Below are positions 4,879 through 15,102 of a stretch of 37,821 nucleotides of DNA, in pieces. Numbering within the stretch: position 1 is the first letter of the stretch; each line of letters starts with the position of its first letter. The notes under the pieces are model-generated. The model saw only the letters and a list, made by a program, of their open reading frames with translations. It had not been told where the DNA came from and did not search any database. The translations under genes and the position numbers were made by a program. Source of the stretch: a virus; the IMG/VR virus record IMGVR_UViG_3300032236_000684, positions 1 to 37,821 of that record. One strand, given 5' to 3'.

Positions 4879-5684
4879 ATAAGAACGAAGTAGGTGTTTT
4901 CCCCAGCCCGATAACCGATCTCTGGAAGTAACTTGTCTTTCTCAACAAGTTTGAGAAGAGCGATATGGTTTCTGGTTCTCTCAGGTAGCGCCTCAACAGC
5001 GTCTAACTCCTGCGCTTCCAAAGCACGACCATTCGGGATAAGGATAGTCTTGTTGTCCCTAAACATAACCGTATCAAACTTAGGCTTAATTTCTGCCTTG
5101 CGTTGCATCTCTTCGTATGCCTCAATCCCTGCTGCCGCACTTTTAAATGCCTCGGTTTTGAATTGAACCCCAATAGATGTTAGGTATTTAATTTCTTCAT
5201 AGATATCTGCAGGATTTATTCTGAATGGATACACCGCCTTACTATCTTCTTGCGCCCATCTTTCATGCGCTCTCTCTGCATCACGTCTACCTTTAGCAGA
5301 TAACTCATGCCACTCGAATGGTTGCAACACTTCCATCGCAATCTTTACTGCCTTCTTCAAGTCCTTAGTTCTGCGTGACGAATGTTCATTACCCCAATGC
5401 CCGAATCTATCGTTCTGAATCTTGCGTGAAGTAATCTTGTATTCCTTATCGTTACGGCTACCATAAGTCCACTCGACAACACCAACCATATCTACTGACT
5501 CATCACCAATAAAGCGTGTGTCATGGAATCTTAACTGCCAAAACTCCTCGGGTTTATATGAGTGTGGAACGGCTGATACTGTCAGACAGTATCCTAACTT
5601 AGCGTGCTTTAGTTCTAACGCTTCGAGCATCTGAACCACAGGCTCAGACATCTTGGTCTTGTCTATATCATTTAGTTGTAGCAT
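4875..5684 (-). CDS. hypothetical protein with internal palindromic operator copy
   Basis: A 269-residue protein with no recognised domain. It is mixed and charged, with DAERAHERWAQEDSK in a likely helix and a conserved-looking C-terminus (GYRAGENTYFVLI). The ATG chosen (MLQLND) has GAGGAG in front; a longer reading frame upstream would overlap the preceding gene heavily. One of the 17-bp palindromes lies inside it, near codon 35 (YCLTVS), in inverted orientation. It is the last gene before a strong internal promoter. Confidence 0.8.
   Translation of the reverse strand: MLQLNDIDKTKMSEPVVQMLEALELKHAKLGYCLTVSAVPHSYKPEEFWQLRFHDTRFIGDESVDMVGVVEWTYGSRNDKEYKITSRKIQNDRFGHWGNEHSSRRTKDLKKAVKIAMEVLQPFEWHELSAKGRRDAERAHERWAQEDSKAVYPFRINPADIYEEIKYLTSIGVQFKTEAFKSAAAGIEAYEEMQRKAEIKPKFDTVMFRDNKTILIPNGRALEAQELDAVEALPERTRNHIALLKLVEKDKLLPEIGYRAGENTYFVLI
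5576..5592. repeat. 17-bp palindrome, copy 1 (inverted orientation)
   Basis: ATACTGTC-A-GACAGTAT: two perfect 8-bp arms around one base. It is the only copy with A at the centre of the plus strand. It lies within the 269-residue gene and encodes part of YCLTVS. Confidence 0.95.
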
Positions 5685-5853
5685 TTGTTTTCTCCTCGTC
5701 GTAAGATTTAATCCAAGCAAGAGCATCATTCAGTTCCCTAAACAACGGAGACTGCACACCCTTACCTTTCCATTGATAACTTAATTCGTCACTAATCAAC
5801 CACCTATCACTGCCCCACTTCGCTACTCGTTCATGGACTTGTTCTAGGTTCAT
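5668..5853 (-). CDS. small hypothetical protein
   Basis: 61 residues with many Trp and charged residues (KWGSDRWLISDELSYQWKGKG, and a predicted helix ELNDALAWIKSYDEEK). GGAGGATACCG precedes the ATG. It overlaps the preceding gene by 23 bases and the next by 17. No domain recognised. Confidence 0.7.
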   Translation of the reverse strand: MNLEQVHERVAKWGSDRWLISDELSYQWKGKGVQSPLFRELNDALAWIKSYDEEKTNATTK

Positions 5854-6013
5854 CGGTATCCTCCACTACGTCATAAATATCCCAATCGACTTCGATTGGC
5901 TCGTCTTCTACCTCTACCTCCCACATCTTTTCCCTTGCTTCTTCCCATGTATCGGCTTCAACATGGACTAGGAAATACTCCTTTCTAATAATCCAACCTT
6001 TCCATTTCTTCAT
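5831..6013 (-). CDS. small hypothetical protein (acidic, EADTWEEA motif)
   Basis: 60 residues from MKKWKGW. A β-strand pair (WIIRKEYFLVHVEA) is followed by a helix (DTWEEAREKMWEVEVED), a layout common in small phage early proteins. AGGAGG lies nine bases before this ATG; an ATG at 6022 is too close to it. Function unknown. Confidence 0.7.
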   Translation of the reverse strand: MKKWKGWIIRKEYFLVHVEADTWEEAREKMWEVEVEDEPIEVDWDIYDVVEDTDEPRTSP

Positions 6014-6014
6014 A

Positions 6015-6179
6015 TCACTCATCCTCCTCGTCAAATGCTTCAAATTCTAAATTCATAAATCCTACATCTAGACCCTCGTCTAAACACTCCTGATACGCTA
6101 ACTGCTCCGCCTCTTCAATACTCTTTGCCTTAATACTTAAATTCCATGTACCCGTTGCCGTAACTGTGTAGTTTTTCAT
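6015..6179 (-). CDS. small hypothetical protein related in layout to its neighbour
   Basis: 54 residues: strands (NYTVTATGTWNLSIKAKS), a helix (IEEAEQLAYQECLDEG) and an acidic end (FEAFDEEDE). The strand-helix pattern with EEAE resembles the next gene's EADTWEEAREK, so the two may be distant paralogues. AAGGAGGGAG precedes the ATG, and the stop region supplies the next gene's ribosome binding site. Confidence 0.7.
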   Translation of the reverse strand: MKNYTVTATGTWNLSIKAKSIEEAEQLAYQECLDEGLDVGFMNLEFEAFDEEDE

Positions 6180-6189
6180 CACTCCCTCC

Positions 6190-7029
6190 TTAAAACATAT
6201 TTAGAATTTCATCTACCTTAGACTTAACGCTGGTTCGGATAGCTTCACTCTCACGAATATCTGAGGCATCCACACCACTCAAGGCTTTCTCTAACTTCTG
6301 ACGCATCTGTTCCATCTTCGGGTCATTAGTTATATTGAGGCTTGTTAGGAGAGAGCAGAGTTCGCTTGCGTTGGTAATAGTAGAATCCCAAAACTTCTTT
6401 TTATTCTCATCTGTGTAGTCCATACGGTCACTCAAATGAGTCAGGGTTTCATGCAACCTATCCCATGCGTCTTTCATAGCGTCAGCTAACTTAGACTCGT
6501 AGTAGTCTTTGTATTGCTGTTGTAGTTCGTTCTTAGCCTGTTCCTCAACATCTATTCTGAAATCACCCGCATCAGGCACAGGGCAGAACACATACTTGAA
6601 TCTAAACTTGCCACGCAGTTCTTCGGCTGTGGGATATTCCCCTCGGTCAAACAAATCGCCAAGCGTAAACGCAGAAGATGATACCAGTTGCGGATACTCT
6701 ACAAGAAAGTCCTCTACCGCTTGGTTGTATTGGTTCTCGAAGTTACCCAGCGTAGCCTTGTAATCAAAAAAGGATTTCATAGGTAGTAAGCGTGAGCCAC
6801 CATCTGACCAAGGTAAAGTCTGTTGATAGTTCCAAGTCCGCACAGCAGTTGCAATCTTCTGCACTTTCTCTAGCTTGTCTGACCCAGCCAATAACTTCTT
6901 GTGATAATTACCAGCCCGAGCCTTGGTGCTTTTAGTTGCATCAATTTCTTCGGATACTTTCTTATCCATCTTGCGACCTGTCCACATAGAAATGTTTAGG
7001 TCTACTAACATAGCGTTGCTTCCAATCAT
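6190..7029 (-). CDS. DUF3150-like protein
   Basis: A 279-residue, mostly helical protein. The pattern LNISMWTGRKMDKKVSEEI, then RTWNYQQTLPWSDGGSRLLP and YPTAEELRGKFRFKYVFCPVP, resembles the DUF3150 family of phages and plasmids, which has no known function. The C-terminal third is probably coiled coil. It lies in the same leftward transcription unit as the VWA-metallopeptidase and AAA+ ATPase genes upstream, which suggests a joint function (inference). ATGA junction with the upstream gene; GGGAG supports this start. Confidence 0.78.
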   Translation of the reverse strand: MIGSNAMLVDLNISMWTGRKMDKKVSEEIDATKSTKARAGNYHKKLLAGSDKLEKVQKIATAVRTWNYQQTLPWSDGGSRLLPMKSFFDYKATLGNFENQYNQAVEDFLVEYPQLVSSSAFTLGDLFDRGEYPTAEELRGKFRFKYVFCPVPDAGDFRIDVEEQAKNELQQQYKDYYESKLADAMKDAWDRLHETLTHLSDRMDYTDENKKKFWDSTITNASELCSLLTSLNITNDPKMEQMRQKLEKALSGVDASDIRESEAIRTSVKSKVDEILNMF

Positions 7030-7268
7030 TTTAATTCTCCCTCTAGGTTAAGCAGTTTGCACATTGACTGCGCTTCGTGCTTGGTTAAACTTCTACATAC
7101 TAGGTTTGCGCCAGTAGGCATATTAGATAAATGACAGGGTTTATAAACATCTCTATAAACACCAGCCCACATCTCAGGTCGATGTATCACTACATCAGTT
7201 AGCCTAATAACACACCATTGACTACTATCTTCTACTGCTCTCTTCTCCCACCACTTCTTTCGTATCAT
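7026..7268 (-). CDS. small hypothetical protein of a tandem family
   Basis: 80 residues. It has a β-like part (QWCVIRLTDVVIHRPEMW) and a C-terminal helix (SLTKHEAQSMCKLLNLEGELK). The end resembles the ends of the two other small genes nearby (7449-7715 and 7715-7921). The ATG overlaps the upstream stop as TGATG, with GGAGGAG in front; a GTG just upstream is less likely. Function unknown. Confidence 0.72.
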   Translation of the reverse strand: MIRKKWWEKRAVEDSSQWCVIRLTDVVIHRPEMWAGVYRDVYKPCHLSNMPTGANLVCRSLTKHEAQSMCKLLNLEGELK

Positions 7269-7462
7269 CACTCCTCCATCGGAACAATCCTCATCTTTAA
7301 CTTAATACTGTCTGACAGTATTTGGTCGCACATAACCTCCATAGCATTTGAATGGGTCATGGTCACACCTAACTGCGACTCCATCTTCTTCTTTGCATCT
7401 ATAAACTTCTTCTTAGCTTCTGTCTTTAACATCAGCGTTTCAAATCCTCTAGCTATTGCCAT
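7268..7462 (-). CDS. small hypothetical protein encoding a palindrome copy (ILSDS)
   Basis: 64 residues, basic and helical at the N-terminus (LKTEAKKKFIDAKKKMESQLG), then SNAMEVMCDQILSDSIKL. The ILSDS stretch is the translation of the 17-bp palindrome. A small DNA-binding protein is possible but no motif proves it. It overlaps its upstream neighbour by 14 bases. Confidence 0.7.
   Translation of the reverse strand: MAIARGFETLMLKTEAKKKFIDAKKKMESQLGVTMTHSNAMEVMCDQILSDSIKLKMRIVPMEE
7305..7321. repeat. 17-bp palindrome, copy 2
   Basis: Perfect ATACTGTC-T-GACAGTAT followed by TTGG. It lies within the 64-residue gene and is read there as ILSDS. Confidence 0.95.
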
Positions 7463-7715
7463 GATTATTTCCTTCCATTAGTTTTTTAATTGCTTGTGCT
7501 TCTCTGTGTGTTGTGTGTTCTGATACAACCCTATACTTTTGTGTATGTTTATTCCACTTTAGTATTTGCCACCTACTTTTTGCTTTCATATGTATTGGCA
7601 TATCAAACCTTTCTATATAACCCATCCCCTTTCTTAATATGTTTCCAGCCATAACATTTTTTGTATTTGCCATAGACTCAGCCAACATCTTTGTGTAATT
7701 CCTTGCGTATGCCAT
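7449..7715 (-). CDS. small basic hypothetical protein of the tandem family
   Basis: 88 residues, strongly basic. The C-terminal half (SRWQILKWNKHTQKYRVVSEH, then HREAQAIKKLMEGN) is a short sheet plus helix like that of the genes on either side. Function unknown. Its start overlaps the upstream stop by one base. Confidence 0.72.
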   Translation of the reverse strand: MAYARNYTKMLAESMANTKNVMAGNILRKGMGYIERFDMPIHMKAKSRWQILKWNKHTQKYRVVSEHTTHREAQAIKKLMEGNNHGNS

Positions 7716-7921
7716 CAGCCCTCCATGATTTTTAAGATTGTATCTGCTTGTTGTTTAGTAAGGTAGTCACCGACAATATCCGCCGAGCCATTCCATCTCT
7801 GCACGATAATCCGATAACCACCTCGCCATACATCTACTATGTATCTGTCTTTCATATCGTAGTCGTCATAAGCTACCGCCTGACCCTCTCGTTTCATTGG
7901 TGCATCTGCGAAGTTTCCCAT
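7715..7921 (-). CDS. small hypothetical protein of the tandem family
   Basis: 68 residues: strands (RYIVDVWRGGYRIIVQRWNG) and a helix (YLTKQQADTILKIMEG). Clearly the same layout as the 88- and 80-residue genes downstream. A TAATG junction couples it to the metallopeptidase-VWA gene. Function unknown. Confidence 0.74.
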   Translation of the reverse strand: MGNFADAPMKREGQAVAYDDYDMKDRYIVDVWRGGYRIIVQRWNGSADIVGDYLTKQQADTILKIMEG

Positions 7922-9108
7922 TAGTCTTGTATCCTCACGCTAACACCAACAGGCGCAACCACATGACTAGTCATGCCCCAAAACACAGGATGTTTCCAAT
8001 CACCCCACCCATCTATATAGCCGTCAGTCAGCACGATTACACACTCAGGGTTTAGCTTGTGTTGCTCAATGTATTTAGGAATACACTTGGCGCTTGTGCC
8101 ACCGCCACCCATAGGTTTAGTAGAGGACATGATTGCTTCATAGTCACCTCGGTCATACTTCTCATGAGCGCATACCTCTGTGTCCCAATACATCAGATCA
8201 ATACCCTCGGGTTGCACATGGTTGCATACAGATAGAAGTTCGCCTAGGAATTGCCCGACCTCAGCCTGTCCGATAGAGCCTGACATATCAATCGCTACAA
8301 CGATACGACCCACCGCCTCACCGATAGCACTTGGCATATAGACATTCTGATCTACCCACCTACGGTTTGGTCTGCGCCATGTAGAGTTATCCTTGTCGTT
8401 GCAGATAGAGTTCACAAAGTCAGCAAGTACCTCACGCCAGTTCACCTTAGCTTCCATAGCCTCAGTTATCTCTCGTGGGACATTACCGTTTAGCTTACCC
8501 GCCAGTAATGCGCCTTGTCTTAATGCTTGATCGACCTCTCGGGCAAGTGTTTGTTTCTCATCCTCCGACATTTCATCGGCACTTTCCCAATCGTGTTCGT
8601 CAAAGCCCTGCCCACCTTGCGATTCCTGATCGCCACTACCATCGCCTTTTCCACCCTTACCTCCTTGTTGTTGTTCGTCTTTGAGCATACGGAATACCTC
8701 ACCCGCATCCATACCTCGATACTTCTCATCTAAGCAACCGCCCTCGGGTAGCGTCACATTATTACCTTGTGGGTCTGAGTCGTGAATCATTAAGTTAATA
8801 ACGAAGTCACAAGCCATGTTCGCTAGCTGTGGGTTTTGTTTGTAAAGATGTTTCCATACAGTTGTATGACGGAAAGCCTTGTGTAGATTCTCGTGAAGTA
8901 TCAAGCCCTTCAAGTCAGAGTCTTTCATGCCGTCTACAAACTTACGACCATAGTAAGTATTCTTACCATCTGTGCAAGCCGTTGGTATATCATCACTTAC
9001 CTCAGTCTTACCGAGCATGAAGATACCCGAATACAAACAATACTTAGGGTCATTCATCAAAGCCACATGGGACTTCTGCACTCGTTGTTCTGCGCTTAGT
9101 CTTGCCAT
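7921..9108 (-). CDS. putative metallopeptidase with VWA-like domain (DUF2201-type)
   Basis: 395 residues with two parts. The N-terminal half holds a zinc-peptidase motif HENLH (72-76) in ILHENLHKAFRH, as in the DUF2201_N family. A Gly/Gln-rich acidic linker follows (about 145-185). The C-terminal half is a VWA-like domain with a MIDAS site: DMSGS (274-278), a Thr in GGGGTSA (about 338) and Asp in VLTDGY (362). Such proteins pair with MoxR/CobS-type AAA+ ATPases, one of which lies just upstream. The substrate is unknown. It overlaps the zinc-binding small gene by 13 bases. Confidence 0.9.
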   Translation of the reverse strand: MARLSAEQRVQKSHVALMNDPKYCLYSGIFMLGKTEVSDDIPTACTDGKNTYYGRKFVDGMKDSDLKGLILHENLHKAFRHTTVWKHLYKQNPQLANMACDFVINLMIHDSDPQGNNVTLPEGGCLDEKYRGMDAGEVFRMLKDEQQQGGKGGKGDGSGDQESQGGQGFDEHDWESADEMSEDEKQTLAREVDQALRQGALLAGKLNGNVPREITEAMEAKVNWREVLADFVNSICNDKDNSTWRRPNRRWVDQNVYMPSAIGEAVGRIVVAIDMSGSIGQAEVGQFLGELLSVCNHVQPEGIDLMYWDTEVCAHEKYDRGDYEAIMSSTKPMGGGGTSAKCIPKYIEQHKLNPECVIVLTDGYIDGWGDWKHPVFWGMTSHVVAPVGVSVRIQD

Positions 9109-9308
9109 TTTGTTTTACCTACCTTTCTTAAGTTTGGTATGTGTTGTGGTTCTAGTGGGATATATACATTTTCTTGGCACGATACTTGTCGGCAATATAT
9201 CTCTGACGCAAGTTCATCATTAAATACACACCGCCTACAATGGTCGTAGTCATCTTCGGGGTCAGCCACATATATCATTCCCTTTAGTTGTATCCATTTA
9301 AGTTTCAT
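9096..9308 (-). CDS. small cysteine-rich, probably zinc-binding protein
   Basis: 70 residues. DYDHCRRCVF and a later C-x5-C pair (IYCRQVSCQENVY) suggest one metal site. Small proteins of this type are common in phage early regions, function unknown. GGAGG lies just before the ATG and the 17-bp palindrome just upstream of that, so the palindrome is in this gene's leader. Confidence 0.75.
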   Translation of the reverse strand: MKLKWIQLKGMIYVADPEDDYDHCRRCVFNDELASEIYCRQVSCQENVYIPLEPQHIPNLRKVGKTKWQD

Positions 9309-9318
9309 ATATCCTCCG

Positions 9319-9335
9319 ATACTGTCTGACAGTAT
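9319..9335. repeat. 17-bp palindrome, copy 3
   Basis: Perfect copy filling the gap between the AAA+ ATPase stop, which it directly abuts, and the ribosome binding site of the next gene. Confidence 0.95.
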
Positions 9336-10454
9336 TTAGAACAACCATTGGTTATCAGTAGCCCACTTCACAAACTCTTTGTTGCTTACTGCCATAGCTT
9401 GCTTGTTGCTAGACTTAACGATTGAACGGGCAAACAACGCTTGTAATTCCTTATCCAATCGGTCTGCATACTTGAGCCACTTGGGTAGGGTTTCCTTATC
9501 GACACGAGTAATAGCCGAGAACACCAAGATACATTTAGCTACCGCATCATCAGGGACTTTTGCGCTTGCTGGGGATTCACAGATAGCTTCCCATGTAGGT
9601 AGCTTATCCACCACAGTAAAGAACGCTTGCATATCACGAGCCGCAGATTCACCGATAGTGCCAGCCAATGCACTGATAGTCACGCTATCACCTAAGTCAC
9701 CACGCTTTTTGGCAATATGACTAGCTTTCTCAAGTGAACGAGGAGTCACGAACGCTGACTGTCCAGCACGAGTTGGGTTAAAGATATATGGATTGTCTTT
9801 CTGAGCCGAGTCAGTATACGACTCGAGTGCATGGGGGAATTGTTTAACCCACGCAATAATCTCAGGCGCAATATCATTCTCAACAGCCCACGCACCCCAA
9901 GAGTCTGCATCTAGCGAGCCATCAGCACCGAACCCAGCATGAGGTTTACGCACAGTAACAAAACAAACACGATTACGAGCATGAGCCTCGAGGCTATCAC
10001 CTACACCATCAGTTGCTAGATTAGTTGTACCGAACACAATCGAACCCTTGGGTAAATAGTCATCACCGATACGCTTTTCTAACATGAGAGTAAGCAAGAC
10101 ATTCTTAACCGCTTTCATAGCCTTACCAATCTCGTCGAGCATGACGATTACAGGTTTACCAGTGTGCATTTTGAATCTTGCGTTTGGCGCAAACTTGGTG
10201 ACTTTAAGAGTTGATGCCAGTTTTTCTCGAACCACCTCCTCTGTATAAGGTAAAGCAAAGTCGCCTAGGTCTAATAAGGTGCAGTCAATGTAGGCTACCT
10301 CGTAGTCAGGATAGCGTTTAGCTACCGCCTTGAGCATAGAGGACTTACCAATCCCCGGCTCACCCTGACCAATGATAGTTACATCAGAGCCGACAGTTGC
10401 GATTGCATTTGCAAACTCGTTTAAAGATAAAGAACTTCCGAACTTGATACTCAT
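9336..10454 (-). CDS. MoxR/CobS-type AAA+ ATPase
   Basis: 372 residues. Walker A GEPGIGKS (31-38), Walker B VIVMLDE (102-108) and a sensor-1-like GTTN (142-145) define an AAA+ ATPase. The general layout fits the MoxR/CobS branch, whose members remodel partners through a VWA protein. Here that partner is likely the metallopeptidase-VWA protein two genes downstream. AAGGAGA stands before the ATG. Its leader contains a strong promoter and one palindrome copy, so the block has its own control. Confidence 0.92.
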   Translation of the reverse strand: MSIKFGSSLSLNEFANAIATVGSDVTIIGQGEPGIGKSSMLKAVAKRYPDYEVAYIDCTLLDLGDFALPYTEEVVREKLASTLKVTKFAPNARFKMHTGKPVIVMLDEIGKAMKAVKNVLLTLMLEKRIGDDYLPKGSIVFGTTNLATDGVGDSLEAHARNRVCFVTVRKPHAGFGADGSLDADSWGAWAVENDIAPEIIAWVKQFPHALESYTDSAQKDNPYIFNPTRAGQSAFVTPRSLEKASHIAKKRGDLGDSVTISALAGTIGESAARDMQAFFTVVDKLPTWEAICESPASAKVPDDAVAKCILVFSAITRVDKETLPKWLKYADRLDKELQALFARSIVKSSNKQAMAVSNKEFVKWATDNQWLF

Positions 10455-10487
10455 ATACTTCTCCTTGATTTAAAATTAAAAAACCAA

Positions 10488-10504
10488 ATACTGTCTGACA
10501 GTAT
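10488..10504. repeat. 17-bp palindrome, copy 4 (AAA+ operon leader)
   Basis: Perfect copy 47 bases downstream of the -10 box of the 10552-10580 promoter, within the leader of the AAA+ gene. Confidence 0.95.
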
Positions 10505-10551
10505 TTGGTACGACCCCACTAACTTCTACTACTTTTATAATTTATACTACT

Positions 10552-10580
10552 ATTATAAACCTATACTACCTCTGTGTCAA
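10552..10580 (-). promoter_or_regulatory. leftward sigma-70 promoter of the AAA+/VWA operon
   Basis: TTGACA (10575-10580) and TATAAT (10552-10557), both consensus, with a 17-bp spacer. The -35 context TATTGACACAG is shared with the 13.7-kb promoter. Transcription would begin near 10545 and pass through palindrome copy 4. Confidence 0.9.
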
Positions 10581-10589
10581 TACCCCGAC

Positions 10590-11543
10590 TCACAAGCAGT
10601 TAGTTGCTACCACACCCAACGCTACCTCTTTTGTTGTATATACATCTGCTACTTGTTTGATAATGTAGTTGATGCGATTGTCCACAGTCTTATAGTCAAA
10701 CTGTTCTTCTCTCACAACCATTTGTTCCATGCGCTTGTTGCCGTTGTAGTCGGTGCGTTCTACATCAACCGTTTTTATTGTGCGAGTTTCCTTAGCCTGA
10801 CTACCCGCACAGATTATGCAAAGAAGTTTTGGATATAGCGTTTCATCTGCGTTGCACATAGCCTCATACAATTCCTTAGCAGTTGAGTTGCTTACTGAAC
10901 CTGACAATCCCCATCTGTCATACTTATTGCCGTTTAACTCATAGCCCTTGCGACCATAGTAATCAGGCTGACCAGTTGCGTATTGTTCCACTAGGTCATT
11001 ACTTAACCAACCATCAGCCAGTTTGAGCATGATCTTGGCATAGTCCCTAAAGCCCTTGAGTTTATCCCTCGCCGTTTTCATCTTGGTTCGGTCAATAACT
11101 TTTTGTTGCAGTTGAATAGGGTTCTCGATTGTGTAGGTGTCAGTCATGCGTGAGTAATTAAATACCGTTGCCTTCTTGCTGTCCATCACATACGAATGAG
11201 TCTTATATTCAACCCATATCTTGTTGTATTTCTTATAGCACCGCATATCTCGTGGTAGATACCGATTGATAAACTCTGCCGTTGTTGGGGTTTCGTAGCC
11301 GTCAGTCTTAATATGTAATGCACCATTAGCTAAATACAATACGCAGTCAGTACGGTATAGGTGTGCGCCGTATGCCTCGCCACCCTCTACATCAAGTGCG
11401 CCCTCCTCTACTACATAACGCTTGACGATTTGTTCCCAATCCCTGCGCCGTTGTGCGATTGGTCGTACCTCTGTTGCACGACCCCTGATAGGTTTCGTAT
11501 TTAGATAGCGTTGTTTGAAGTGTTCGAATTTCTCTAAACTCAT
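10590..11543 (-). CDS. hypothetical protein
   Basis: 317 residues with no recognised domain. Basic, with many Tyr and Lys. Notable stretches are AQRRRDWEQIVKRYVVEEGA near the N-terminus, YLPRDMRCYKKYNKIWVEYK in the middle, and CIICAGSQAKETR near residue 245. TAGGAGA precedes the ATG. It is the last gene before the AAA+ promoter, and palindrome copy 5 is in its leader. Function unknown. Confidence 0.8.
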   Translation of the reverse strand: MSLEKFEHFKQRYLNTKPIRGRATEVRPIAQRRRDWEQIVKRYVVEEGALDVEGGEAYGAHLYRTDCVLYLANGALHIKTDGYETPTTAEFINRYLPRDMRCYKKYNKIWVEYKTHSYVMDSKKATVFNYSRMTDTYTIENPIQLQQKVIDRTKMKTARDKLKGFRDYAKIMLKLADGWLSNDLVEQYATGQPDYYGRKGYELNGNKYDRWGLSGSVSNSTAKELYEAMCNADETLYPKLLCIICAGSQAKETRTIKTVDVERTDYNGNKRMEQMVVREEQFDYKTVDNRINYIIKQVADVYTTKEVALGVVATNCL

Positions 11544-11566
11544 TTGATTCTCCTAAAGATGTTGTA

Positions 11567-11583
11567 ATACTGTCTGACAGTAT
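11567..11583. repeat. 17-bp palindrome, copy 5
   Basis: Perfect copy in the 44-bp gap between the 91-residue membrane protein gene and the 317-residue gene, ahead of the latter's ribosome binding site. Confidence 0.95.
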
Positions 11584-11587
11584 CGGG

Positions 11588-11863
11588 TTAATTAAACAGC
11601 CAATAAATAAAACAAAATGCACCACCTACAACTACACCTACCCATGCAAACCCAAGGAACGCACCAGCTAAAAACTCTAGGGCTTCTTCCCAGTCGGTCT
11701 TGCTTCGCCAAAACGCAGTAGCATAGTTAGCATCTCGGAACGCTTCACTTACACTTCTGTGGGTCTTGTTACTGTGGATATACTGAGCAGGGTCTGTTTC
11801 CCCCAAGTATTGCCACTTGGCAGTTTGCTTGCCTTTAGTTTTGTTCAGTCGTTTTGTCGCCAT
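11588..11863 (-). CDS. small membrane protein
   Basis: 91 residues: a basic N-terminus (KRLNKTKGKQTAKWQYLG), a charged middle and a strongly hydrophobic C-terminus (AGAFLGFAWVGVVVGGAF and CFIYWLFN) that would anchor it as a tail-anchored protein. AGGAGAG precedes the ATG. It overlaps the upstream gene by 29 bases. Function unknown. Confidence 0.72.
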   Translation of the reverse strand: MATKRLNKTKGKQTAKWQYLGETDPAQYIHSNKTHRSVSEAFRDANYATAFWRSKTDWEEALEFLAGAFLGFAWVGVVVGGAFCFIYWLFN

Positions 11864-12116
11864 GTTTCTCTCCTATATATAGTTCGTTAATGTTCTGCTC
11901 GTAAGTCAGGTAGTCTTTCCAAGGTCGGCACTCCTCACCCCAAACATAAAACAACTCTGTCATTACTTCGCCCACCAGTACCCGCCTTGCCTCCGTCGAG
12001 TCCGCCTTTTGTAGCTTTAGCGATAACTCTAGTGGATCGTTGGGTTTGGGTCTTTTCAAGGGCTTGTCCGTCACAGTCTTGGGTTTGCCCATGCGATACT
12101 CGGTAACTCTAATCAT
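11835..12116 (-). CDS. small hypothetical protein
   Basis: 93 residues with a basic N-terminus (RMGKPKTVTDKPLKRPKP) and helical middle (LELSLKLQKADSTEARRVL). Its ribosome binding site AAGGAGGAG lies in the end of the sigma-like gene, with which it overlaps. No known domain. Confidence 0.7.
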   Translation of the reverse strand: MIRVTEYRMGKPKTVTDKPLKRPKPNDPLELSLKLQKADSTEARRVLVGEVMTELFYVWGEECRPWKDYLTYEQNINELYIGEKHGDKTTEQN

Positions 12117-12387
12117 TCAACTCCTCCTTTTCATACATCAGTTCATACTCGCTACTGTCTGACAGTATTTCCCCCTCGGTTGGTTTGATGGGCTTGGTAT
12201 ATCTTGGGTCGCTGAAGAAATTGTCAGGGTTGTAGCCCTTCTTGCGTAGTATCTTCCTAGCGTTTCGTAATGCGGACTCCTCGATTTGCCTTACCCTCTC
12301 CCTTGTGCAACCCATCACATCTGCTATCTGCTCAAGGGTCATTACAGGTTTAAAGAGCATGGGTTGTTTGCGTTGATAGCTAGTCAT
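12109..12387 (-). CDS. sigma-70 region 4-like helix-turn-helix protein
   Basis: 92 residues. Residues about 16-47 (MTLEQIADVMGCTRERVRQI, then EESALRNARKILR) are a near-textbook sigma-70 region 4.2 helix-turn-helix, the part that reads the -35 box. No other sigma regions are present, so it is not a full sigma factor. It may act as a transcription regulator or anti-sigma/co-sigma factor. The C-terminal tail includes EILSDSSEY, the translation of palindrome copy 6. ATGA overlap with the upstream gene. Confidence 0.88.
   Translation of the reverse strand: MTSYQRKQPMLFKPVMTLEQIADVMGCTRERVRQIEESALRNARKILRKKGYNPDNFFSDPRYTKPIKPTEGEILSDSSEYELMYEKEELND
12152..12168. repeat. 17-bp palindrome, copy 6 (one mismatch)
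   Basis: CTACTGTC-T-GACAGTAT: the first base differs. It lies inside the sigma region 4-like gene and is read as ILSDS. Confidence 0.93.
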
Positions 12388-12590
12388 GTCGTTCTCTTTG
12401 GGTTGGTGGTTGCTAACTCTTTCGGGTTATGTATGTATTGATACGCACCCTTATTAAATGGAATGGCTACTGTGAACCCCTCTGCTACTGCCCGAGCCAC
12501 ATCAATACCGCACTCAATACAAAACTTGTAGCCCAACTCCCACCGAGCCATAGGGTACTCATCTCCACAACATCTGCATATATTCTTCAT
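12384..12590 (-). CDS. small zinc-ribbon-like protein
   Basis: 68 residues. CRCCGDEYP and CIECG form a four-cysteine zinc site near the N-terminus, followed by a mixed tail. Small zinc-ribbon proteins are common in phage early regions, and the role here is unknown. GAGGAG in the end of the upstream gene serves as ribosome binding site; ATGA junction. Confidence 0.75.
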   Translation of the reverse strand: MKNICRCCGDEYPMARWELGYKFCIECGIDVARAVAEGFTVAIPFNKGAYQYIHNPKELATTNPKRTT

Positions 12591-12793
12591 TTGTAATGCT
12601 CCTCTATCAATTTAAGGTTGTGCTTGGCAATCACTTGCCATAAGTCTTTGTTAATTAAACTTCTTTTATTCCACTCGGTACTGTCCGACAGTATTTCGTT
12701 GCAGTATCTCTCGATACCCATAAGCAAAAAAGCCTCACCCACGCTATCAGGGCTTAGCTTCTTAATTAGTGCTTTGTTGGTTTTGCGTGTCAT
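12587..12793 (-). CDS. small hypothetical protein encoding a palindrome copy
   Basis: 68 residues, helical and basic. RYCNEILSDSTEWNKRSLI includes the translated palindrome (ILSDS). AGGAGC precedes the start, which overlaps the upstream stop as ATGA. No domain recognised. Confidence 0.7.
   Translation of the reverse strand: MTRKTNKALIKKLSPDSVGEAFLLMGIERYCNEILSDSTEWNKRSLINKDLWQVIAKHNLKLIEEHYK
12678..12694. repeat. 17-bp palindrome, copy 7 (centre C)
   Basis: GTACTGTC-C-GACAGTAT: first base and central base differ from the consensus; the other seven bases of each arm stay paired. Inside the 68-residue gene. Confidence 0.93.
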
Positions 12794-12939
12794 GAAATGC
12801 TCCTTATATAGGCTTGCGCCTGTGCATATGTTCTAAAAAACTGGGCTGACCAAGGTTTTGGACTCCAACCCATTGTGCCCACCGAATTTACAGGTCTAAC
12901 TACCCAACCTGTTCTAATCTGCTCCGCTACTAATCTCAT
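12790..12939 (-). CDS. small hypothetical protein
   Basis: 49 residues from MRLVAEQ. GWVVRPVNSVGTMGWSPKPW followed by AQAQAYIRSI looks like a short sheet and helix, like the tandem family at 7.0-7.9 kb. The ATG overlaps the upstream stop as ATGA, with GGAGAG in front. Longer in-frame extensions would cover the upstream gene. Confidence 0.68.
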   Translation of the reverse strand: MRLVAEQIRTGWVVRPVNSVGTMGWSPKPWSAQFFRTYAQAQAYIRSIS

Positions 12940-13088
12940 GAGTTCTCTCCTAATATAAAACCATAAGTAAACGACGAAAACACCAGCCCGACCAATGCAA
13001 GGATAGGAATTTCTTGCCATACCCAACTGATACAGGCGCACATAATCGCCACGCATAAACTGATTGCACCAACAAAATAGATATTCAT
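12936..13088 (-). CDS. small membrane protein
   Basis: 50 residues, nearly all hydrophobic: two membrane segments (IYFVGAISLCVAIMCACISW and IPILALVGLVFSSFTYGFIL). GGAG precedes the ATG, which overlaps the upstream stop. It follows another tiny membrane protein. Function unknown; a holin-like role is possible but nothing else supports it. Confidence 0.7.
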   Translation of the reverse strand: MNIYFVGAISLCVAIMCACISWVWQEIPILALVGLVFSSFTYGFILGENS

Positions 13089-13186
13089 TTCAATAACTCC
13101 CAAATGGTATGGTTTAACGACACAAAAAAGATATAGGTGAAAACACCTACTAAAGACCACATTACTACCTTAGCTAGTTCAGCCAT
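13085..13186 (-). CDS. tiny membrane protein, first gene of the leftward operon
   Basis: 33 residues with one membrane segment (WSLVGVFTYIFFVSL). It has the best ribosome binding site of the operon (AAGGAGGTGTATATG) and couples to the next gene by ATGA. It is the first reading frame after the 0.5-kb leader that begins at the 13.7-kb promoter. Confidence 0.65.
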   Translation of the reverse strand: MAELAKVVMWSLVGVFTYIFFVSLNHTIWELLK

Positions 13187-13216
13187 ATACACCTCCTTTT
13201 AAAAAACACTCAGTCA

Positions 13217-13238
13217 GTCAGGCTATTTCTAACCTGAC
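13217..13238 (-). terminator. attenuator-like hairpin before the first leftward gene
   Basis: On the minus strand GTCAGG and CCTGAC pair around a 10-base loop; about ten bases later comes a run of six T. The gap between stem and T-run is longer than in a normal intrinsic terminator, so termination is uncertain. Confidence 0.3.
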
Positions 13239-13356
13239 CTCAAAATGCTCTTTGTTTGTTTGCCCTCTGCTAGTTTCTCGCAGTTCTTGTTAGAGGTTAA
13301 GGGCATGGGTAGGGCATGGTGCGTGTGGTCAGGTTGGTTATGTCTTGAAGGCTCTG

Positions 13357-13373
13357 ATACTGTCTGACAGTAT
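13357..13373. repeat. 17-bp palindrome, copy 8
   Basis: Perfect copy in the leftward leader, between boxA and the first gene. Confidence 0.95.
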
Positions 13374-13552
13374 TTCACCCAGCTATATAAATAGACACAA
13401 CTTCACCCCACACCTTGCTACTACCGCAGAGATACTGCTCGCCTGACGATAACTAACCGCCCGCTTAAATGGGCTATCGAGGCTACGCCTACTCTGCACT
13501 CAGCATTGGTTTGGGGTCTGTATTCCCCCGCACCGCTAAGCATTTACCTAAT

Positions 13553-13564
13553 TGTTAAAGAGCG
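13553..13564 (-). promoter_or_regulatory. rrn-type boxA antitermination element
   Basis: The minus strand reads CGCTCTTTAACA, 11 of 12 bases matching the bacterial rRNA boxA TGCTCTTTAACA bound by NusB-S10. It is followed by AT as in rrn leaders. It lies about 150 bases after the 13.72-kb promoter, before the long leftward operon. Confidence 0.7.
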
Positions 13565-13653
13565 ATACTGTTTTGTAGTAGTTAATAACTTGTTGGAGAA
13601 GCTACCCTCTCGTTGCACCCTTGAACTTAATCGTGGTGTTTCCTGTTACTAAG

Positions 13654-13670
13654 ATACTGTCTGACAGTAT
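13654..13670. repeat. 17-bp palindrome, copy 9 (main leftward promoter leader)
   Basis: Perfect copy, 49 bases downstream of the -10 box of the 13.72-kb promoter. This matches the 47-base distance at the AAA+ promoter. Confidence 0.95.
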
Positions 13671-13719
13671 TTGGTTTTGATTGGGTTCGAACACGACCTT
13701 TTCTCGACCTTACCCCTCT

Positions 13720-13748
13720 ATTATAGACCTATTATAAAGCTGTGTCAA
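13720..13748 (-). promoter_or_regulatory. main leftward sigma-70 promoter
   Basis: TTGACA (13743-13748) and TATAAT (13720-13725), both consensus, with a 17-bp spacer. The context TATTGACACAG equals that of the 10.55-kb promoter. It should drive the boxA leader and the leftward arm. Confidence 0.92.
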
Positions 13749-13862
13749 TAGGGTAGAACTCGGTTGGGGTTTGGAGTGTTTAAGTTAATAGTTGGTCGGT
13801 TTTAAGTTTGCAGTTGGTTTCTTTTGTAAAAACTGGTATCACATTTGTTCACTCCTCTTGTA

Positions 13863-13879
13863 ATACTGTCTGACAGTAT
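13863..13879. repeat. 17-bp palindrome, copy 10
   Basis: Perfect copy followed by TTGG, about 115 bases upstream of the main leftward promoter and inside the TGTTCACTC cluster. Confidence 0.95.
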
Positions 13880-14058
13880 TTGGTTTACTCTGTTAAGTTA
13901 GGTAGGGCTTTGTTCACTCAAATGTTCATTTTGTTCAGTCATGTTCACTCATCAAGGAACAAGGTATTTTTTATTGGATTCAATGGGTTAGGTGATTTTA
14001 ATATACCATGTTCACTCGTGAACAAAAGTATGACACCCTACGAAAGGGTCTTTCTGTC

Positions 14059-14075
14059 GTACTGTCTGACAGTAT
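14059..14075. repeat. 17-bp palindrome, copy 11
   Basis: GTACTGTC-T-GACAGTAT, first base changed, within the non-coding cluster. Confidence 0.94.
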
Positions 14076-14276
14076 TACTTAACATTGTAAAGTGAGTTGA
14101 AATTTTTGGGAGTCATACATTTAAAAAATGAGTGAACAAGTGAACACTACTAATATTTATAATTAAATAAAGAAAGAAAGAGTATATAGAACAAGGAGTT
14201 GCGAGTGTTGCAACGCACAAAAAGTCTGTTCACTCACCAGTGAACATGAGTGAACACAGTGAACAAAGTTGATTCG

Positions 14277-14293
14277 GTACTGTCTGACAGTAT
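14277..14293. repeat. 17-bp palindrome, copy 12
   Basis: GTACTGTC-T-GACAGTAT, first base changed, at the right edge of the TGTTCACTC cluster. Confidence 0.94.
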
Positions 14294-14387
14294 TTTGCTT
14301 GCCTCGCCAACTTCGCCCGCACCCTCGCTGACCACGACATCACGCCCCTTCAAAAAGAAAAAGTAATATCAAAAAGAATTTAAAACC

Positions 14388-14402
14388 GTCGGCTTCGCCG
14401 AC
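14388..14402 (-). terminator. second hairpin downstream of the 14472-14978 gene
   Basis: GTCGGC-GAA-GCCGAC on the minus strand, followed by GGTTTTAAATTC. A six-pair stem with a short T-tract, possibly a backup terminator behind the stronger one. Confidence 0.45.
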
Positions 14403-14433
14403 CTAGATGACACCAGTTCCCTAAAAAAGGGCG

Positions 14434-14457
14434 AAAAAAAACCCCGCCGAAGCGGGG
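14434..14457 (-). terminator. rho-independent terminator of the 14472-14978 gene
   Basis: The minus strand reads CCCCGC-TTCG-GCGGGG followed by eight T: a stable tetraloop hairpin with a U-tract, about 15 bases after the stop codon. Confidence 0.92.
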
Positions 14458-14471
14458 CTGATACTGGGTGA

Positions 14472-14978
14472 TTACTTGCTTTCACCCTCGAAGTCATCAA
14501 GAGCATCAATCAGATAAGACGCTAAGCTTGTAGTCTTATCATTCTCTTTAAACTTATTAAACATACTACGCAAACCCTTGACAATATCGTCAAGCTTTGC
14601 ATCACCCTTAAACTTTACGCCCGTTGTAGGTGCTACCTTACCCTTACCAGCTTGTGAACCCTTGCTGGTTTTGGCGCGGTACGCGTTCATACTGAACGGC
14701 TTGTTTTCGTTGTAAGCTTTGCGGATCGCTGTCATGTAATTTTTAACAGTTTGCTCACTCAATACTTTGCCGTCTTTACCCTTTGATGCTTTCAAGGTTT
14801 CCTGAATACGAACCATGCGAGCATCACCGCTTTTAACTGTACCCAATTCAGTACCCTTGCTGGCGGTACGCAACTCTTTAATGCCGTTGTCGATAGTGGC
14901 TTGAATCGTTGCGCCAATCACAACATCTTTAGCAATTTGAATTGCGATTTGTTCTTGCTTTGTATATTTAACAGTCAT
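14472..14978 (-). CDS. hypothetical protein with its own promoter and terminator, candidate regulator
   Basis: 168 residues, basic in the middle. An N-terminal helix (YTKQEQIAIQIAKDVVIGAT), a segment with a helix-turn-helix-like look (KVLSEQTVKNYMTAIRKAYN), a Lys/Gly linker (KTSKGSQAGKGKVAPTTGVK) and a helical acidic tail. It stands alone between the control cluster and the rightward arm, with a promoter and strong terminator; AGGAG precedes the ATG. A palindrome copy lies just upstream of its promoter. This makes it a candidate for the palindrome-binding protein, but no domain is recognised. Confidence 0.82.
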   Translation of the reverse strand: MTVKYTKQEQIAIQIAKDVVIGATIQATIDNGIKELRTASKGTELGTVKSGDARMVRIQETLKASKGKDGKVLSEQTVKNYMTAIRKAYNENKPFSMNAYRAKTSKGSQAGKGKVAPTTGVKFKGDAKLDDIVKGLRSMFNKFKENDKTTSLASYLIDALDDFEGESK

Positions 14979-15038
14979 TTTTAAAACTCCTAATAAGGAT
15001 ATCGTCGTAAGTCTTTATTGCCCCGAACCGATAACTCT

Positions 15039-15067
15039 ATTGTGCCTACAACATAGCGCTATGTCAA
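15039..15067 (-). promoter_or_regulatory. leftward promoter of the 14472-14978 gene
   Basis: TTGACA (15062-15067) is followed after 17 bp by CACAAT (four of six with TATAAT). The -35 context TATTGACA is shared with the other leftward promoters. Palindrome copy 13 lies 18 bases upstream of the -35 box. Confidence 0.7.
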
Positions 15068-15085
15068 TAGCTATTTGATTTTCCC

Positions 15086-15102
15086 GTACTGTTTGACAGT
15101 AT
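15086..15102. repeat. 17-bp palindrome, copy 13 (most diverged)
   Basis: GTACTGTT-T-GACAGTAT: changes at the first and eighth bases. It is upstream of the promoter of the 168-residue gene and is the rightmost copy. Confidence 0.92.

Follow-up and report, generated by a model that had tools for sequence, protein, structure and literature searches.

A conserved array of short repeats between the early and late genes of a group of related phages is a probable origin of replication

What does a dense array of short repeats do in the non-coding DNA between the leftward and rightward genes of a phage: does it start replication, or does it control transcription? The array lies in IMG/VR record IMGVR_UViG_3300032236_000684, a viral record classed as linear, whose 37,821 bases form the window analysed here. 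To the left of 13.2 kb the genes run leftward, among them those for an AAA ATPase, a DUF2201 metallopeptidase/VWA protein and a DUF3150 protein; to the right of 15.7 kb they run rightward and encode, among others, terminase, portal and capsid proteins. The left end of the window falls, on a reading of the sequence, inside a family A DNA polymerase gene. By terminase, the nearest annotated phages are DSL-LC04, HTVC027P and 023Pt_psg01 (53-56% identity), and 13.2-16.0 kb, used as a nucleotide query against annotated phages, gave no match. Among the leftward genes, those for the AAA ATPase, the DUF2201 metallopeptidase/VWA protein and DUF3150 form a conserved set (6190-10454, minus strand), and a small protein encoded at 12109-12387 (minus strand) carries a sigma-70 region 4 domain (Pfam E 3.5e-9) and is possibly a phage transcription factor.

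An earlier note on this DNA had described an iteron-like cluster of about twelve copies in 420 bases and proposed either an origin with initiator-binding iterons or a second operator array. The cluster itself is borne out: 13846-14265 holds 13 TGTTCA sites, of which 11 are exact TGTTCAC and two are variants (at 13923 and 13932), with four further exact copies in the rest of the window. In 2000 dinucleotide shuffles of 13161-14471, TGTTCAC occurred 0.26 times on average and at most 3 times, and the most frequent 7-mer of any kind within 420 bp reached 9 copies, never 11. The inverted pairing that had been noticed is equally present, as in GTTCACTCGTGAAC at 14010-14023. Two details shift: the AT-rich stretch exists but lies within the array, between two site blocks, rather than beside it, and the palindromes at 13864 and 14060 are indeed interleaved with the sites, whereas the third, at 14278, stands just past the end of the cluster. 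The elements of the locus are, from left to right:

13720..13748, minus strand: perfect sigma-70-type promoter (TTGACA-17-TATAAT) leading into the early genes; relatives have a similar sequence.
13846..13854, plus strand: outlying forward site TGTTCACTC, with an equivalent in L002, L006, L063 and L103.
13864..13878, no strand: palindrome TACTGTCTGACAGTA inside the array, of a separate site system.
13911..13950, plus strand: block A, forward sites at 13911, 13923 (TGTTCATTT), 13932 (TGTTCAGTC) and 13942.
14009..14024, no strand: block B, paired sites TGTTCACTCGTGAACA, 67 bp past the last block A site.
14060..14074, no strand: palindrome TACTGTCTGACAGTA between blocks B and C.
14130..14146, minus strand: block C, a pair of inverted sites (GAGTGAACAAGTGAACA) 8 bp apart that hardly varies across the alignment.
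14146..14189, no strand: AT-rich tract between blocks C and D, a candidate DNA unwinding element by duplex stability.
14191..14204, plus strand: second conserved element, a motif of the gap, ACAAGGAGTTGCGA in the window and nCAAGGACTTGCnn as consensus.
14227..14265, no strand: block D, sites > < < < (14227, 14240, 14250, 14259).
14278..14292, no strand: palindrome TACTGTCTGACAGTA, 12 bp past block D.
14440..14459, minus strand: intrinsic terminator of the adjacent leftward gene; most relatives have the same hairpin.
14472..14978, minus strand: 168-aa protein of A type adjoining the array, a candidate palindrome binder.

The array is flanked by the leftward promoter (13748-13720) on one side and by the terminator (14459-14440), which stands between it and the adjacent leftward gene, on the other; the earlier note had overlooked both of these as well as the ordered layout of the sites.

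Relatives were sought with the ATPase, the palindrome, the adjacent protein and the site pair as queries, which yielded close to 200 loci. In about 40 related contigs the array lies at the same place and keeps its block order, orientation and spacing, namely a forward triplet, 66-67 bp, a pair, about 105-125 bp, an inverted pair, the AT-rich tract with CAAGGACTTGC and then > < < <. Close relatives that span the region carry the same array in the same orientation; the earlier note had held that absence from them would count against its reading, and the array is found there. Block A has two to four forward sites in nearly all relatives; the block B pair, inverted in the window, is mostly tandem in relatives with TGTTCC, and in most relatives its sites are 7-10 bp apart, as the inverted sites of block C are 8 bp apart. 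The word itself changes by lineage (TGTTCAC, TGTTCC(G/A), TGTTACA, TGTTTCA), distant relatives differing in word and not in place, and the array is less regular in the TGTTACA class. As the geometry is kept while the word and most of the spacer sequence change, spacing must be important in its own right. The distance between the second site of block C and the first of block D is 52-54, 61-65, 74-76 or 86; these values rise by about 10 bp at a time, as though the helical phase were conserved, although the independent events are few. In each of five long genomes the array is the sole dense cluster of its word; G001 and G004, with identical ends of 123 bases, are probably complete circular assemblies.

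Some loci depart from the common form. In L069 (7522-7860 on the reverse complement) the array word is apparently GCTACTC, unlike all TGTT words. L020 (G030) apparently has a reduced array of TGTTTAA sites adjoining repeated segments of about 90 bases, and this may be a decaying or changing origin. In L223 (023Pt_psg01), a phage without the DUF927 primase-helicase described below, seven TGTGCCA sites cluster at 13575-13784 near the small terminase gene.

If the array is an origin, the gap between blocks C and D is where opening would be expected. The gap begins with the AT-rich tract (14146-14189), and only one 50-mer of the window is less stable than the one from 14145; the tract is the least stable in G002, G003 and G007, ranks third in G001 and falls outside the top six in G004, and relatives with TGTTCC have a shorter gap, in many cases one that is not AT-rich (AT 0.48-0.78). 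The second element, nCAAGGACTTGCnn, reaches 12.7 bits over 19 non-redundant C-D gaps as against 7.7-8.4 in shuffles, and Rhizobium phage RHph_TM27A has a similar string, AATCAATGGCTTAGC, in non-coding DNA. In five genomes the cumulative GC-skew minimum and the array are about 1-5 kb apart; gene direction also switches there, and GC skew was rejected as proof of an origin, being confounded by this change.

The place of the array at the boundary of early and late genes, with a perfect promoter directly downstream, and the interleaving with operator-like palindromes also suit transcription control, in which a phage regulator on TGTTCAC would act as a switch for the early promoter (13748-13720) and perhaps for the late genes. 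The palindromes speak to this directly. TACTGTCTGACAGTA, a 15-bp palindrome, has 13 copies across 5577-15101, spread over the early region and in many cases directly upstream of genes, with three in or beside the array; sites of the array type are not dispersed at other promoters. In related phages, other palindromes take the same role and track the family of the array-adjoining protein: phages with an A-type neighbour have mostly odd-centred palindromes (TACTGTCnGACAGTA, TAATGTC.., TATAGTC.., TCAAGTC..) and those with a B-type neighbour mostly TTAACAnnTGTTAA-like ones, the two protein types showing no blastp similarity at E 0.01. (Matches of the B-type profile to L006, L021 and L063 are an artefact of L021 having been misplaced in the profile set, and its other matches in the TGTTCA clade are probably artefacts of the same kind.) The palindromes are a site set separate from the array, for which the A-type 168-aa protein is a candidate binder. 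The array word behaves differently: genomes of A type carry TGTTCA or TGTTCC arrays, and genomes of B type TGTTCC, TGTTAC or TGTTTC arrays. Because the word does not follow the split between neighbours, it is probably some other protein that recognises the array; the simplest reading, in which the adjacent 168-aa protein binds the array, was rejected since the family does not follow the array word. An AT-rich tract and a multi-block geometry over 420 bp would also be unusual for an operator. Control of transcription is therefore an unlikely function for the array, and the second operator array proposed at the outset is the less likely of the two original readings. It is nonetheless plausible that control of replication and of transcription meet here, because palindromes of the regulator type sit inside and beside the array.

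Which protein, then, would read the array? Long relatives that bear it encode, at the far end of the early region, a fused primase-helicase of about 951 aa. It was found once per record in 21 of the 32 records searched, the other 11 being fragments no longer than 39.6 kb together with 023Pt_psg01, a more distant phage in which primase and helicase are separate. The G001 protein carries DUF927 (Pfam PF06048, E 1.7e-25), and the primase-helicase matches the primase/helicase family phrog_8841; motifs of the AEP type (D82/D84; S118 G119 G121 H123) and the Walker A motif are invariant in alignment A2, and the best sequence match of the helicase in the PDB is 5dgk (Cch, E 2e-12). The C-terminus is predicted to form a winged helix (beta-alpha-alpha-beta-beta, residues 864-922, pLDDT about 80), and the top fold matches of the C-terminal model, itself of moderate confidence (mean pLDDT 66), are 5dgk (Cch) and 8tch (SaPIbov1 Rep), with VIA Z of 8.1 and 8.8; the whole-length model (mean pLDDT 55) was unusable beyond the winged helix. 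In the 64.7-kb circular assembly G001 the array (52.8-53.3 kb) and the primase-helicase gene (9.3-12.2 kb) are about 20 kb apart. The gene of the candidate initiator lies outside the 37.8-kb fragment that forms the window, which stops within the DNA polymerase gene; on the basis of relatives with ATPase identities of up to 93%, we infer that the phage of the window encodes the protein too.

A link between this protein and the array word was sought by a covariation scan of 13 genomes, 21 shared gene families and 8956 positions. Eight positions followed the word perfectly, six of them in the primase-helicase, as compared with five positions, one in the primase-helicase, in a control with swapped labels. 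Under a looser column criterion the primase-helicase showed no excess (12 of 62, against 10 of 61 in the swapped-label control), so that the signal rests on few positions. Five of the six discriminating primase-helicase columns were lost once further TGTTCC genomes were added, leaving residue 901, whose wing strand reads KRKRM or KKKRM. This residue is R where word position 6 is A (seven genomes) and K where it is C (15 genomes), in 22 of 22; the R901 genomes have TGTTCA in six cases and TGTTTA in G030, and one genome, G033, has I at this residue and the word TGTTTC. A tree built on residues 1-820 nests G007 (R) next to G046 and G018, both K, at support 1.0, and on this placement the R/K switch would have occurred at least twice. 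G007 has a mixed array, however (six TGTTCA and six TGTTCC), which weakens the second event and could be a transitional state.

The same scan bears on two further functions that an array of this kind could serve. A role as packaging start (pac or cosB-like), with the small terminase subunit as binder, would agree with the distance of 1-2.3 kb between the array and the terminase genes in many relatives, and the lambda-type cosB also has several spaced sites; columns in strict agreement with the array word occur in the primase-helicase and in none of the terminase-like families (the 216-aa and 463-aa proteins of G001), and the array lies outside the terminase genes and adjoins the early promoter, so that packaging is quite improbable. 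The small terminase was also discarded as binder on the grounds that the annotated small terminase subunits of HTVC027P, HTVC023P, 023Pt_psg01 and DSL-LC04 are related to one another and unrelated to the adjacent proteins. Fixed geometry and a single copy would fit any large nucleoprotein complex, including a partition or DNA-organising site unrelated to initiation; given that no ParA/ParB-type gene occurs among the proteins scanned and that the covarying protein is the primase-helicase, this carries very little probability.

The array is thus probably a replication origin, recognised by the winged helix of a phage-coded primase-helicase and opened between blocks C and D. An origin with initiator-binding iterons is the best-supported reading of the comparisons made here, which show a conserved place and geometry, one array per long genome, an AT-rich tract and covariation with residue 901. 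The primase-helicase, with its N-terminal primase of the archaeo-eukaryotic type, DUF927 and winged helix, would bind TGTTCAC through the latter, its wing reading base 6 of the word; through the fixed, partly inverted blocks, helicase assemblies would come to flank the AT-rich tract between blocks C and D, which would open; the same protein would then unwind and prime, and the family A DNA polymerase of the phage would extend. Binding, assembly, opening and initiation are steps that we infer for this protein. Whether the locus also amounts to an undescribed type of tailed-phage origin, with a fixed geometry of four blocks, a word re-coded between lineages together with one wing residue, and a build around regulator operators by which one regulator would control both early transcription and initiation, is a more tentative proposal, and a somewhat doubtful one. 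The natural word switches and the one-residue switch of the initiator make origin recognition by the primase-helicase directly testable.

The array most likely works as an origin opened by a self-loading primase-helicase, in the manner of the SaPI or P4 systems. According to a published study (PMC7581432), Cch, which has DUF927, and SaPIbov1 Rep are related; the SaPI Rep uses its C-terminal domain to recognise an origin composed of short repeats (iterons), and Cch2 binds iterons through its C-terminal domain. The SaPIbov1 system (of the Staphylococcus aureus pathogenicity islands) resembles the present one in its DUF927 helicase with a C-terminal DNA-binding domain (here predicted) and in its origin of many short repeats; it differs in that the phage has a fused primase-helicase and its own DNA polymerase. 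The SaPI origin, moreover, lies directly downstream of the initiator gene, while in the relatives of the phage the two are about 20 kb apart, and since origin and initiator gene are not adjacent, the array is not classed as a SaPI-type replicon. The Cch of SCCmec provides the best PDB sequence match to the phage helicase (5dgk), but Cch and Cch2 belong to staphylococcal cassette elements with a separate primase, and the Cch2 origin has only three iterons.

In phage P4, whose alpha protein acts at ori1/crr, primase and helicase are likewise fused and alpha is also the origin binder; the layout of the array is different. The P4 type I repeat, GGTGAACAG(A/T), may share a GTGAACA core with the array word. 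Identity with a D5_N helicase of the P4-alpha type was rejected, PF08706 being unmatched up to E 10 in eight records, several of them near-complete; the P4 origin-binding domain is absent among the fold matches listed for the C-terminal model, which is no evidence against kinship. Origins of lambda and of iteron plasmids (O protein, Rep) have iterons beside an AT-rich opening region, whereas here sites in both orientations stand in spaced blocks and the candidate initiator is a helicase, not a protein of the Rep or O type.

Two published accounts of related phages make no mention of an origin. An independent parallel in design comes from Pseudomonas phage Rollin, which encodes a homologue of the primase-helicase (27.5% identity). 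Eight of the nine TATGCAA copies of its record (L336/L337) lie at 260-680 (about 420 bp), in non-coding DNA before the late genes, arranged as three one way, three the other way 9 bp apart, an AT-rich tract and one of each, with AAAAGGTAG..CTACCTTTT palindromes interspersed in the region (1-700). Rollin repeats the design with a different word, as a candidate origin, and as an annotated phage with a culturable host and an analogous array it could serve as a laboratory model.
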